Positions 52,777 to 56,473 of a stretch of DNA of 64,000 nucleotides are shown here, piece after piece. Position numbers and translations under genes: made by a program. The notes beneath the pieces are model-generated. The model had not been told where the DNA came from. It worked only from the letters and a program-made list of their open reading frames with translations, and searched no databases. The stretch is from Acinetobacter sp. WU_MDCI_Axc73 (GTDB lineage Bacteria > Pseudomonadota > Gammaproteobacteria > Pseudomonadales > Moraxellaceae): positions 62,001-126,000 of the forward strand of contig NZ_JAHPRO010000001.1 of the NCBI RefSeq assembly GCF_025562455.1, in the 5' to 3' direction. Numbering within the stretch: the stretch's first letter is position 1; the number at the start of each line of letters is the position of its first letter.

Positions 52777-53262
52777 TTGAACAGTACAGAATACACACTA
52801 GATCGTATTGATCGGAAAATTTTATCTGCATTACGTCAAAATGGCAGACTGACGATTGCGCAACTTTCAGAACAGGTTGGTTTATCTTCCTCTCCTTGTT
52901 GGACACGTTTAAAACGGCTAGAAACTTTAAAAATTATCGATGGATATACAGCTAATATTAATCCAAAAGCCATTGGAATTAAGGATTTATTCTTTATTGA
53001 AATTACACTAGAACGCCATGATGATGAGATGCTTGAACAGTTTAGTCAGGCATTGGCAGATATTCCTGAAGTGATTGAAGCGCATTTGGTAACAGGTGAA
53101 TATGATTATCTGGTCAAAGTCGCCGTAAAGGATGCTGAACACTATGAGCGTTTTTTAAGAAAGAAACTTTACTCAATCAAAGGAATACGTCATACCCGCT
53201 CTACCTTTGCCTTACGTCCGCTTAAATCTGCAAACTCGGCTGATTTTATGTTGATTGAATAA
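52777..53262 (+). CDS. Lrp/AsnC family transcriptional regulator
   Basis: The 161-residue protein has the winged helix-turn-helix YTLDRIDRKILSALRQNGRL ... LSEQVGLSSSPCWTRLKRLE (about 5-60) and the C-terminal RAM domain (DLFFIEITLERH, HLVTGEYDYLVKVAV). It begins at TTG 52777: an in-frame stop lies directly upstream and no ATG is available before the helix-turn-helix. It is distinct from the Lrp-type protein at 177-662 and has no obvious regulated neighbour except the small divergent frame and the siderophore operon. Its ligand and targets are unknown. Confidence 0.85.
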   Translation: MNSTEYTLDRIDRKILSALRQNGRLTIAQLSEQVGLSSSPCWTRLKRLETLKIIDGYTANINPKAIGIKDLFFIEITLERHDDEMLEQFSQALADIPEVIEAHLVTGEYDYLVKVAVKDAEHYERFLRKKLYSIKGIRHTRSTFALRPLKSANSADFMLIE

Positions 53263-53311: not shown

Positions 53312-53384
53312 AGTTTGAGATGAGCCTCATACAGTATATGGCTTGATTCATATACGACTAGCCCCTAACCATGGGGCTTTTTAT
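53312..53384 (+). ncRNA. Candidate small RNA after lrp
   Basis: Between the lrp stop codon and the convergent frame lie a stem GTATATG-N8-CATATAC (about 53333-53355) and a terminator stem AGCCCC / GGGGCT with T run (53360-53383). With the promoter-like signal just upstream this could be an RNA of about 75 bases. It might also be just the 3' end of the lrp transcript. Confidence 0.35.
53360..53383 (+). terminator. Intrinsic terminator after lrp / candidate small RNA
   Basis: Stem AGCCCC / GGGGCT with a seven-base loop and six T. Confidence 0.8.
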
Positions 53385-53674
53385 TGGCTATAAAATATCA
53401 AGATTTTTTTAATTTCTCGTAAAAACTTAATCAAGTTAACCACACCATTAAAAATAAATTTGCTTTCAACTTCATTTAAAGTTGTATTGTCGTGGGACAA
53501 ACTCTGATTGTTACGTACATCATTAAATACTTCTAAAATAGAAATATCACTAAAATTCAGAACATAGCCAGTTCCCATTCCAAATAGTTTTTCTAATTTT
53601 TCTACATAACTTAATATTGACAATGAACTTTCAAAAAAATAAGGGCCGATTACTCGACCCTTACCTTTACTCAT
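53381..53674 (-). pseudogene. Remnant of an abortive-infection (Abi_C/HEPN-like) protein
   Basis: A 97-codon frame reads ...SLSILSYVEKLEKLFGMGTG, YVLNFSDISILEVF, VRNNQSLSHDN and NEVESKFIFNGVVNLIKFL. This resembles the C-terminal domain of abortive-infection family proteins, and RNNQSLSH is an Rx6H motif as in HEPN ribonucleases. The usual larger N-terminal part is missing. The first 14 codons coincide with the acnB terminator hairpin at 53632-53662, and in-frame stops lie just before the ATG at 53674. So it is most likely a truncated leftover of a defence gene joined to the acnB 3' end, not an intact gene. The family match is from pattern memory only. Confidence 0.5.
53632..53662 (-). terminator. 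Intrinsic terminator of acnB
   Basis: Minus-strand stem AAGGGTCGA / TCGGCCCTT with one U-G pair, loop GTAA and seven T. It lies inside the start of the frame annotated as a defence-gene remnant. Confidence 0.85.
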
Positions 53675-53695: not shown

Positions 53696-56335
53696 TTAAG
53701 TCAATTGAGCCGCAGCAATTTTCTTAGTATCTACTGTGTTTGCAGCATCTGTATATTCAACCATCTTATCAAAGTTCAAATATTTGTAGATGTCAGCAGA
53801 CATGCTGTCGATTTGAGCAGCGTACTGTTGATATTCTTCTGGGCTTGGAAGTTTACCTAAAACGGCAGCAACTGAAGCAAGCTCAGCAGAAGCAAGGTAA
53901 ACATTCGCACCTTGACCTAAACGGTTAGGGAAGTTACGAGTAGAAGTCGATACGCAAGTGGTATTTGGTGCTACACGCGCTTGGTTACCCATACACAATG
54001 AACAGCCCGGCATTTCTGTACGTGCGCCAGCTTTACCGTAGATGTTATATAGACCTTCTTCCATCAATTGGTGTTCATCCATACGTGTCGGAGGAGCTAA
54101 CCAAAGACGAGTTGAAAGTGAACCACCAGGTACTTTGTCAAGAAGCTGACCAGCCGCACGGAAGTGACCAATGTTAGTCATACAAGAACCAATGAATACT
54201 TCATCAATCTTGTCACCTTGAACTTCAGAAAGAAGTTTTGCATCATCTGGATCGTTCGGGCAGCAAAGAACAGGTTCTTTAATGTCAGCAAGATCGATTT
54301 CATAGACTTTGGTGTATTCAGCATCAGCATCAGCTTTAAGAAGTGATGGATTAGCCAACCATTTTTCCATGTTTTCGATACGACGCGCCATCGTACGAGC
54401 ATCGCCATAACCTTGTGAAATCATCCATTTCAACATGGTAATGTTAGAACGCAAGTATTCAGCAACTTTCTCTTCAGAAAGAGTAATCGCACAGCCCGCA
54501 GCAGAACGTTCAGCAGAAGCATCAGACAATTCAAATGCTTGCTCAACAGTTAAGTCAGTTTCCATTTCAGTCAAGTCGATCTCAAGGATACGACCAGAGA
54601 AAATGTTTTTCTTACCTTTTTTCTCAACAGTAAGATCGCCTTCCTTGATTGCATAGTAAGGAATCGCATGTACAAGATCACGCAAAGTGATACCAGGCTG
54701 CATTTTACCTTTGAACTTCACAAGTACAGATTCAGGCATATCCAGTGGCATTACACCAGTCGCAGCAGCAAAAGCAACAAGACCAGAACCTGCTGGGAAT
54801 GAAATACCAATTGGGAAACGAGTATGTGAGTCACCACCAGTACCTACGGTATCAGGCAACAACATACGGTTTAACCAAGAGTGGATAATACCATCACCCG
54901 GACGAAGCGACACACCACCACGGTTCATGATGAAGTCTGGAAGTGAATGTTGCATTTGAACGTCAACTGGCTTTGGATACGCAGCCGTATGACAGAAAGA
55001 CTGCATCACGAGGTCAGCAGAGAAGCCCAAGCATGCCAAGTCTTTCAACTCATCACGTGTCATAGGACCGGTCGTATCTTGAGAACCGACAGTCGTCATT
55101 TTAGGTTCGCAATAAGTTCCCGGAATTACACCTTGACCTTCTGGAAGACCACATGCACGACCTACCATTTTCTGAGCTAAAGTAAAGCCTTTGCCAGTTG
55201 CAGCAGGTTGTACTGGAGTACGGAATAAAGTAGAAGGCTCAAGACCTAGAGCTTCACGTGCTTTAGTGGTCAAACCACGACCAACGATCAAGTTGATACG
55301 ACCACCCGCACGTACTTCATCAAGAAGAACAGGCGTTTTAAGCTCTGATTCAGCGATTTGCTCACCGTTTTTGAACGCTGTGACTTTCGCAGCAACATGG
55401 TCAATTTTAAGTGTAATTTCATCGCCCATGTTCATGTCAGAAACATCGATTTCAACAGGAAGTGCGCCTGCATCTTCCATAGTGTTGAAGAAAATCGGTG
55501 CAATTTTTGAACCTAAGCAGTAACCACCGTCTTTTTTGTTCGGGATGTGTGCAATTTCATCACCGAAGAACCAAAGCACAGAGTTAGTTGCAGACTTACG
55601 AGATGACCCTGTACCAACAACGTCACCAACATAAGCAACTTGATTGCCTTTTGCGATTAAGTCTTTAATTTGGTTAAGCGGACCAACTTCACCTGGTTTT
55701 TCAGGATTAATACCATCACGCTCATTTTTCAACATTGCATTTGCGTGTAATGGGATATCTGGACGGCTCCATGCGTCTTGTGCTGGAGACAAGTCATCAG
55801 TGTTGGTTTCACCAGTAACTTTGAAAACGGTTAGCTTAATTTCTTCAGGAACATCACGACGTGTAGTGAACCATTCAGCGTCTGCCCAAGATTGTAAAAC
55901 AGCTTTTGCATTCGCATTGCCTGCTTTTGCTTTATCCGCAACATCATGGAAAGCATCAAATACAAGAAGTGTTTTTTTCAATGCTTCAGCCGCTAAACCA
56001 CCAAGTTCAGCACTATCAAGCAAATCAACTAAAGGAGCGACGTTATAACCACCAAGCATTGTGCCAAGTAAGTAAACTGCACGTTCTTTAGAAACTAATG
56101 GAGATGTCGCTTCACCTTTTGCAACTGCTGACAAGAATGCTGCTTTTACATAAGCGGCTTGGTCAACACCCGCTGGAACGCGGTTTTCAAGCAAGTCCAC
56201 AAGAAAAGCTTCTTCACCTGCTGGTGGATTTTTTAGCAATTCAACCAAATCAGCAGTTTGCGCATCATCAAGTGGCTTCGGTGGGACTCCGAGTGCGGCA
56301 CGTTCTGCAACGTGTTGGCGGTAAGCTTCTAGCAC
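53696..56335 (-). CDS. acnB: Aconitate hydratase B
   Basis: AcnB turns citrate into isocitrate in the TCA cycle using a 4Fe-4S cluster, and can act as an mRNA-binding protein when the cluster is lost. From GTG 56335 (LEAYRQHVAERAALG) it has 879 residues (865 in E. coli). An N-terminal HEAT-like domain, a swivelling domain and three catalytic domains fit the AcnB order; cluster cysteines are in IGSCMTNIGHFRAAG and PGCSLCMGNQARV. GAGGA lies eight bases before the GTG; an ATG further upstream adds 20 residues that are not like AcnB. The promoter region holds a clear operator-like dyad at 56478-56509. Confidence 0.95.
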   Translation of the reverse strand: MLEAYRQHVAERAALGVPPKPLDDAQTADLVELLKNPPAGEEAFLVDLLENRVPAGVDQAAYVKAAFLSAVAKGEATSPLVSKERAVYLLGTMLGGYNVAPLVDLLDSAELGGLAAEALKKTLLVFDAFHDVADKAKAGNANAKAVLQSWADAEWFTTRRDVPEEIKLTVFKVTGETNTDDLSPAQDAWSRPDIPLHANAMLKNERDGINPEKPGEVGPLNQIKDLIAKGNQVAYVGDVVGTGSSRKSATNSVLWFFGDEIAHIPNKKDGGYCLGSKIAPIFFNTMEDAGALPVEIDVSDMNMGDEITLKIDHVAAKVTAFKNGEQIAESELKTPVLLDEVRAGGRINLIVGRGLTTKAREALGLEPSTLFRTPVQPAATGKGFTLAQKMVGRACGLPEGQGVIPGTYCEPKMTTVGSQDTTGPMTRDELKDLACLGFSADLVMQSFCHTAAYPKPVDVQMQHSLPDFIMNRGGVSLRPGDGIIHSWLNRMLLPDTVGTGGDSHTRFPIGISFPAGSGLVAFAAATGVMPLDMPESVLVKFKGKMQPGITLRDLVHAIPYYAIKEGDLTVEKKGKKNIFSGRILEIDLTEMETDLTVEQAFELSDASAERSAAGCAITLSEEKVAEYLRSNITMLKWMISQGYGDARTMARRIENMEKWLANPSLLKADADAEYTKVYEIDLADIKEPVLCCPNDPDDAKLLSEVQGDKIDEVFIGSCMTNIGHFRAAGQLLDKVPGGSLSTRLWLAPPTRMDEHQLMEEGLYNIYGKAGARTEMPGCSLCMGNQARVAPNTTCVSTSTRNFPNRLGQGANVYLASAELASVAAVLGKLPSPEEYQQYAAQIDSMSADIYKYLNFDKMVEYTDAANTVDTKKIAAAQLT

Positions 56336-56473
56336 AGTGTTATTCCTCTTTTTTAAAAAATTATTTGCAAATTCCTGCCTAGCAAAGCTTTGCAAATAAT
56401 ATGGACAGCAAAATTTTACTAAAAATCAAGTCAAAAGTTAATGCAAGCGCCGTGTTTCTTCGTGATTCTCATT

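Follow-up and report, generated by a model that had tools for sequence, protein, structure and literature searches.

The short open frame behind acnB in Acinetobacter sp. WU_MDCI_Axc73 is, as judged from its sequence, the relic of an Abi_C/HEPN defence-type gene, and very probably represents the recent wreck of a one-gene abortive-infection-type system, left in a genus-wide slot of repeatedly replaced and decaying genes. By itself the relic is an ordinary decayed defence-type gene, and the site is the result worth keeping. The slot would extend from the acnB terminator to the next conserved gene and would accommodate single, sometimes two, co-directional genes, many of them of defence type, that are replaced and decay. 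The features at this site are listed below, with positions in the window (the whole stretch of 64,000 nucleotides that was analysed).

53381..53674, minus strand: 97-codon open frame, from an ATG in the acnB 3' intergenic DNA to a TAA, as named in the initial annotation
53381..53623, minus strand: Abi relic proper, 80 codons plus stop, from the TTG aligned with the start of the intact genes (protein alignment and DNA)
53546..53623, minus strand: N-terminal piece kept, residues 18-43, ending in ...GYVLNFSD (alignment with intact genes)
53543..53551, minus strand: junction of the in-frame internal deletion of about 525 bp, at the short repeat AGTRATA (DNA comparison)
53384..53545, minus strand: C-terminal Abi_C/HEPN piece kept, residues 44-97, the last few residues lying past the ancestral stop (Pfam and alignment)
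53492..53515, minus strand: Rx6H motif RNNQSLSH, R54 to H61 (frame translation; both R and H without variation in all 23 family members)
53633..53662, minus strand: hairpin and T-run of the acnB terminator, located 9 nt ahead of the TTG of the relic (sequence, pattern search and folding)
53696..56395, minus strand: acnB (aconitase B), left border of the slot (named by eye and from the initial annotation)
53360..53378, plus strand: hairpin resembling a terminator, behind the lrp-like gene and forming the right border (terminator scan; conserved in locus L044)
52777..53262, plus strand: Lrp/AsnC-type regulator gene, convergent right flank (named by eye and from the initial annotation)

The frame is open over 97 codons on the minus strand, carries the Rx6H motif and runs with its first codons through the acnB terminator hairpin, all of which had been annotated initially and was read directly from the DNA. 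The HMM search proposed at that time bore out the likeness to Abi_C/HEPN: Abi_C (PF14355) matched residues 44-85 in Pfam with E 4.7e-6 and 27.1 bits (cut-off, 24). The match spans only positions 36-81 of the 83 model positions, the first 35 being absent, and the domain is incomplete. No PADLOC model was matched by the relic or by the intact protein of Acinetobacter sp. HR7, and the only NCBIfam match to the relic was far below its cut-off.

The first 17 codons of the frame are acnB 3' intergenic DNA without a stop, upstream of the ancestral start; the TTG at codon 18 aligns with the start codon of the intact genes, and the stop of the relic is displaced into the tail ahead of the lrp terminator. 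The acnB hairpin (-17.4 kcal/mol, z -5.1 on folding) was missed by a simple terminator scan. TAAATGAGTAAAG and the hairpin are also present at the nearly empty site L044. The gene had been described as fused to the acnB terminator; instead, the hairpin precedes the gene, in the same way as in the intact versions.

The gap behind acnB in related strains had been expected to contain a full-length abi gene, and such genes were found in three other species. Two strong relatives besides the window were obtained from 149 genomes of the genus with the 97-residue frame as the query, and three intact genes besides the window from 175 genomes with an intact query, together with two further weak matches that are different proteins. 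The carriers are Acinetobacter sp. NIPH 298 (G095), Acinetobacter sp. HR7 (G173) and the Moraxellaceae metagenome-assembled genome bin88 (G044). Each of the three intact genes (250-253 aa) follows immediately after acnB on the same strand, and the other intact copies are 67-77% identical to that of HR7. Two of them match Abi_C with 44 bits over 71 residues (model positions 1-81; Pfam), compared to the 27.1 bits of the relic, which is also without most of the upstream domain. The short form is no conserved small gene in this material: the searches of 149 genomes (97-residue query) and 175 genomes (intact query) gave no second copy, and none was found elsewhere in the strain's own genome, a draft of 86 contigs.

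Beyond the three Moraxellaceae members, the other 20 of the 23 family members from species genomes have no acnB within a flank of up to 3 kb, and an association of this Abi type with acnB is therefore seen in this genus alone. On plasmids, family matches occur in 184 records, all below 60% identity, and in 44 records the match covers at least 80% of the query; most of the 25 plasmid matches listed carry the name abortive infection family protein, and the one plasmid neighbourhood examined has a methylase and a restriction enzyme near the Abi relative. Phage records gave one weak match to the family only. Little on Abi_C, and no phage assay of the family, was found in the literature search.

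The acnB C-terminus is present in 174 of 175 genomes of the genus. For a survey of the slot, up to 10 kb behind acnB was taken from 140 genomes (one per species), which with the window makes 141 loci; since the loci were taken in descending order of match, the most divergent genomes are too sparsely sampled. A slot was counted as filled when a co-directional ORF of at least 100 codons started within 400 bp; ORFs were called mechanically, and the window, with its 97-codon frame, was entered by hand under the Abi label. By this definition 105 of the 141 slots are filled, the relic included, with 44 families, 22 of which occur once; a few of these labels, housekeeping and transposase-like ORFs among them, are not true cargo (the lipoprotein-like F18 at eight loci, F39, F27, F36 and the transposase-like F154), and at four of the loci scored as empty the sequence breaks off less than 1.5 kb behind acnB (L052, L090, L172 and L178). 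At five loci (L095, L101, L109, L112 and L130) the lipoprotein-like F18 lies behind acnB, with more cargo behind F18.

The turnover in the slot is high. The nearest relative carries the same label for only 15 of the 105 filled loci, and among pairs 0.01-0.03 apart the label is common to 5 of the 15 pairs in which both slots are filled, whereas the right flank agrees in 26 of 41. The loci nearest to the window have an HNH-type gene (L046), a nearly empty slot (L044) and two opposite-strand ORFs (L045 and L047). A tree built from the final 396 nt of acnB, which is only a proxy since the acnB end may have been exchanged along with the slot, requires at least 88 label changes, four of them for the Abi label, in parsimony counts that cannot separate gain from loss. 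The suggestion that defence genes come and go at the acnB 3' end in this group is thereby well supported.

Counted as next-ORF families, there are 57 behind acnB in the 141 loci, or 16.0 per 20 loci, compared to 7.1, 8.2 and 3.0 per 20 for three genes that are located away from the slot, and 14.7, 11.3 and 12.3 per 20 for three minus-strand genes with their 3' ends toward acnB; F4 (12.3 per 20) lies beside the slot region, and its varied neighbours are only partly due to the slot. Decayed cargo, i.e. split or interrupted copies of families that are intact elsewhere, was seen at no fewer than eight other loci (L059, L066, L086, L096, L114, L129, L138 and L146), at three of which (L066, L086 and L146) the broken cargo occurs together with transposase-like ORFs, as judged by eye.

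An alternative history, in which the common ancestor already had Abi behind acnB and most species have since lost it, so that the pattern would reflect repeated loss rather than exchange, is unlikely. The four Abi loci do have one position and similar leaders, an identity of 67-77% to the HR7 copy would fit a long residence, three Moraxellaceae members lie at acnB while 20 others are without it in the flank, and parsimony is blind to gain versus loss. Against this, different genes are mostly found in the closest relatives of the carriers (F85 for the window; F47, F52 and F14 for NIPH 298; F269 for bin88; a broken F226 gene for HR7), although L044, also close to the window, has an almost empty site; the 44 families and the numerous label changes given above apply to the entire slot, and relatives of the gene occur on plasmids.

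For the identity of the cargo, 30 representatives of 69 slot families were scanned singly with Pfam and PADLOC. Pfam matches comprised Mrr_cat, an OLD-type AAA_15 with TOPRIM, a further AAA_15, PDDEXK_4 (twice), putAbiC (twice), a RiboL-PSP HEPN domain, GmrSD_N, Schlafen AlbA_2 (twice, once with NACHT), HNH, DUF4062, RNase_T and others, and ten of the 30 families, the commonest (F14) included, gave no Pfam match at E 0.01, with some others matching only below threshold. Matches to PADLOC models at E 1e-5 were obtained for 12 of the 30, the strongest being PDC-S46 (8.6e-228), PD-T4-2_A (1.8e-151), PD-T4-4_A (1.4e-100), PDC-S59 (1.1e-71) and PDC-S26 (1.8e-63); the JetC, DEDDh and pAgo matches in slot cargo are probably generic. 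A defence-type gene is thus present in 42 of the 105 filled loci (19 labels), or in 47 if HNH and DUF4062 are included, as judged by names; for this count, F143 and F248 were included through their similarity to putAbiC families, and F165 and F183 because they are fragments of F75 and F53.

The numbers of PADLOC models matched were rejected as proof of an enrichment. There were 180 for 50 slot families versus 57 for 50 non-slot ORFs, a count inflated by related ATPase models, with two OLD-like ATPases alone giving 99 and 45 hits (E 1e-5); the control set, which contains accessory genes (IetA, mad3), also hits 57 models, and such counts therefore prove no enrichment.

F14, the commonest slot family, has a length of about 193 aa and occurs at L123:9303-9938 and at 11 further loci. 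The one representative scanned had neither a Pfam nor a PADLOC match, which makes F14 a candidate for a new defence gene; F17, F47 and F48 resemble it in this. For F35 the only match, a nuclease-like one, is below threshold. A cargo protein of 984 aa at L127:450-3401 and at L131 combines Schlafen AlbA_2 with NACHT and has no PADLOC match at E 1e-5.

The cargo often starts directly at the acnB terminator. The conserved hairpin was recognised in 120 of the 141 loci, and the first in-frame start at or behind its T-run lies at a median of 12 nt, within 20 nt in 59 of 106 cases and beyond 80 nt in 32. Of 43 distinct control terminators in the same flanks, four have a start within 20 nt (median, 126 nt), and two of these four (L095 and L130) are second slots, with cargo near F18's own GGCTGA...TCAGCC hairpin. 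Starts that abut the terminator leave no room for an ordinary promoter after the hairpin, and the cargo would therefore be transcribed through it, either by read-through from acnB or from a promoter located behind the acnB stop and ahead of the hairpin; the hairpin would throttle the expression of the cargo.

Promoter-like matches scoring at least 9 of 12 are present in 62 of 91 leaders versus 10.7 expected, in sequences that are related and with matches that overlap a conserved A-tract; in most leaders of the two main classes, the -10 element ends 0-2 nt before the hairpin. The leader in the window scores only 7 of 12, off the expected position. On these leader sequences a promoter before the hairpin is kept as a possibility only; the A-tract pairs with the T-run, and some empty sites score alike.

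On the right side, the cargo ends between 8 bp and several hundred bp before a small conserved gene, where this is present. At eight loci it ends 8-32 bp before F0 (73 aa; e.g. at 902-1124 after the acnB stop in L056), and there the cargo seems to replace the F0 promoter region. On the left side, five loci (L048, L075, L129, L173 and L170) have a CCACTT-type hairpin in place of the conserved one, in the first 60 bp after acnB, and a few others differ as well; the hairpin itself has thus been replaced, in four of the five together with OLD-type cargo, and the left recombination border can therefore lie upstream of the hairpin. Gain and loss of the genes would take place through homologous recombination within the conserved flanks, independently of an integrase, and the acnB site is apparently an integrase-free, single-gene defence slot.

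Alternatively, the genes could be brought in by an integrase or transposon that inserts site-specifically at the acnB 3' end, for which the very uniform left border, with the hairpin in most loci, a sub-threshold TniB match of one slot family (E 0.0043), and transposase-like ORFs at a few loci (by eye) might speak; this is very unlikely, since none of the 30 slot families scanned with Pfam matched an integrase, a search for the hairpin pattern with two mismatches allowed found it once in the strain's own genome, the right borders vary, and some loci have another hairpin. An integron-like reading, with the hairpin as a dispersed recombination site, was rejected on the same single occurrence of the pattern; of the two features that characterise integron gene cassettes, repeated recombination sites were thus not seen in the strain's own genome, nor an integrase in the 30 families scanned.

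In other genera of the family, 87 genomes had a match and 41 loci were examined. At L234, L236 and L239 an ORF starts close behind a terminator after acnB, in two of the three with unlike hairpins; at most of the remaining loci no ORF start close behind the terminator was seen by eye.

The relic itself was broken in its interior. Two parts of the intact proteins of 250-253 aa are recognisable in it by alignment, the N-terminus in residues 18-43 and the C-terminus in residues 44 to about 90, and the stretch missing in between is 525 bp in comparison to HR7 and bin88 and 516 bp in comparison to NIPH 298, all multiples of three. The larger N-terminal part had been taken as missing, through a deletion up to the acnB 3' end; this does not hold, since about 26 residues of the N-terminus survive and the loss of about 175 codons lies between the two pieces kept. 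The ends of the deletion are short imperfect repeats of 7 bp (AGTGATA/AGTAATA) or their counterparts. An in-frame internal deletion between these repeats would have removed, recently, the middle of the one-gene abortive-infection-type system. The loss corresponds to residues 30-204 of the intact protein, which include most of the HEPN helices as judged on the predicted model, and with the middle gone the product would be unable to work like the intact protein.

The surviving codons have diverged little. In a 44-codon stretch the relic deviates at 4 of the 33 codons that are identical in the three intact genes; when each intact copy is left out in turn, the intact copies deviate at 2 of 35, 3 of 36 and 4 of 37 codons, and the relic at 5, 5 and 4. 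Pairwise dN/dS values with the relic are 0.04-0.15 over the surviving codons, and among 23 relatives one invariant and one nearly invariant residue are changed in the relic. The low dN/dS and a divergence hardly above that of the intact copies point to a deletion that is recent relative to the divergence, or to residual constraint.

That the shortened frame is a working small protein, e.g. a regulator made of both ends of Abi, would agree with the frame being kept across the deletion and with the low dN/dS, and is nevertheless highly improbable: the form occurs in one genome only, residues 30-204 with most of the HEPN helices (model) are gone, the two conserved residues are changed, the start aligns with a TTG preceded by a weaker purine-rich stretch (by eye), and the stop is no longer at its ancestral place. 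An artefact of assembly or sequencing, with an intact gene in the genome, is more improbable still, despite the single draft genome of 86 contigs and a junction at a short repeat, since an imperfect 7-bp repeat is, in our judgement, short for an assembly collapse, the start and stop have drifted too, and the genome holds no second copy.

For the intact protein, an N-terminal helical domain and a C-terminal, HEPN-like Abi_C domain would be expected. The HEPN superfamily is characterised by an Rx4-6H motif, and R215 and H222 of the Rx6H motif are invariant in the alignment of all 23 family members, with the motif kept in the relic. In an AlphaFold2 model of the intact HR7 protein (mean pLDDT 81.4, pTM 0.48), residues 120-253 gave 13 HEPN-type rows as the best matches to solved structures (Z 8.6-11.3, rmsd 3.0-4.1, 108-121 residues aligned), among them HepT and the HEPN region of AbiA, with Csm6 rows following after the 13 and the first unrelated row at Z 6.0; some of the 13 were classed as HEPN-like on other grounds than their titles. 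Foldseek with the intact model gave a match with 2hsb (TM 0.72 by target length), weak by its E-value of 0.69, and neither the intact model nor the N-terminal domain gave an E-value below 0.001. Sequence searches against solved structures gave nothing convincing for the intact family sequence (best match, a spermidine synthase at E 0.04) or for the N-terminal domain.

On the predicted model, the ranking of the structures together with the motif argues for a HEPN fold, though such Z values in helical bundles can mean a mere shared arrangement. The likeness to the HEPN effectors (HepT toxin, AbiA HEPN region and Csm6) thus lies in the predicted fold of HR7 residues 120-253 and the invariant Rx6H motif, whereas the N-terminal domain of the Abi protein has no clear known fold. 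If the model is right, the intact protein may be a phage-triggered, RNA-cleaving HEPN effector. The N-terminal domain (L211 residues 1-107, pLDDT 93.6) had as its best, weak matches a CARD (Z 5.0 on realignment, with no structure counted at Z 5 or above in the search itself) and a bacterial death-like domain (Z 4.7); a protein with a death-fold and a HEPN domain would be notable if true, at scores that are low.

Defence hotspots in Acinetobacter have reportedly been described by Yi et al. in 2025, in the same genus and with the same type of question as addressed here, as far as can be compared by title alone. According to part of the published account, cDHS1 and cDHS2 of Pseudomonas aeruginosa are flanked by core genes, carry diverse defence genes with no obvious mobile element and discordance to phylogeny, and have medians of 26 and 6 kb with many systems (PMC10250203). 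On that partial account, the acnB slot has in common with them the conserved core flanks, the diverse defence cargo, the lack of an obvious mobile element and the discordance to phylogeny, and differs in that it mostly holds one or two genes, often against the terminator of a core gene, and is genus-wide. With conserved flanks, variable defence-bearing cargo (30 of the 69 families scanned singly) and no common mobile element, the acnB slot has these features of a site of the cDHS type, with a right flank that varies among a few conserved genes. Two slot families, which are other cargo and not the Abi relic, match components of PD-T4-2 and PD-T4-4 near full length, as far as these are described in part of the source (PMC9519451). 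No publication on the acnB site was found at the level of titles and starts of abstracts, with preprints outside the search, and acnB is not mentioned in PMC12421847. Core-gene-flanked defence hotspots are already known, and it is the small unit and the terminator-abutting layout in which the acnB slot differs.

The acnB slot is one short, easily read address in a widely studied genus, at which close species rarely have the same gene and many genes are of defence type, and the uncharacterised genes at this address are good candidates for new antiviral systems. We propose for the terminator-abutting layout that defence genes could be gained without a promoter of their own and without high, toxic expression. 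More tentatively, and with a probability that we would place well short of even, the acnB 3' end might be a built-in expression dock, whose terminator doubles as the 5' leader of promoterless defence genes and would keep potentially lethal genes at a low expression coupled to housekeeping, while naturally competent cells would swap the genes by plain homologous recombination via the conserved flanks. If this were true, the families with no known relatives (F14, F17, F47, F48 and others) would be new antiviral genes.
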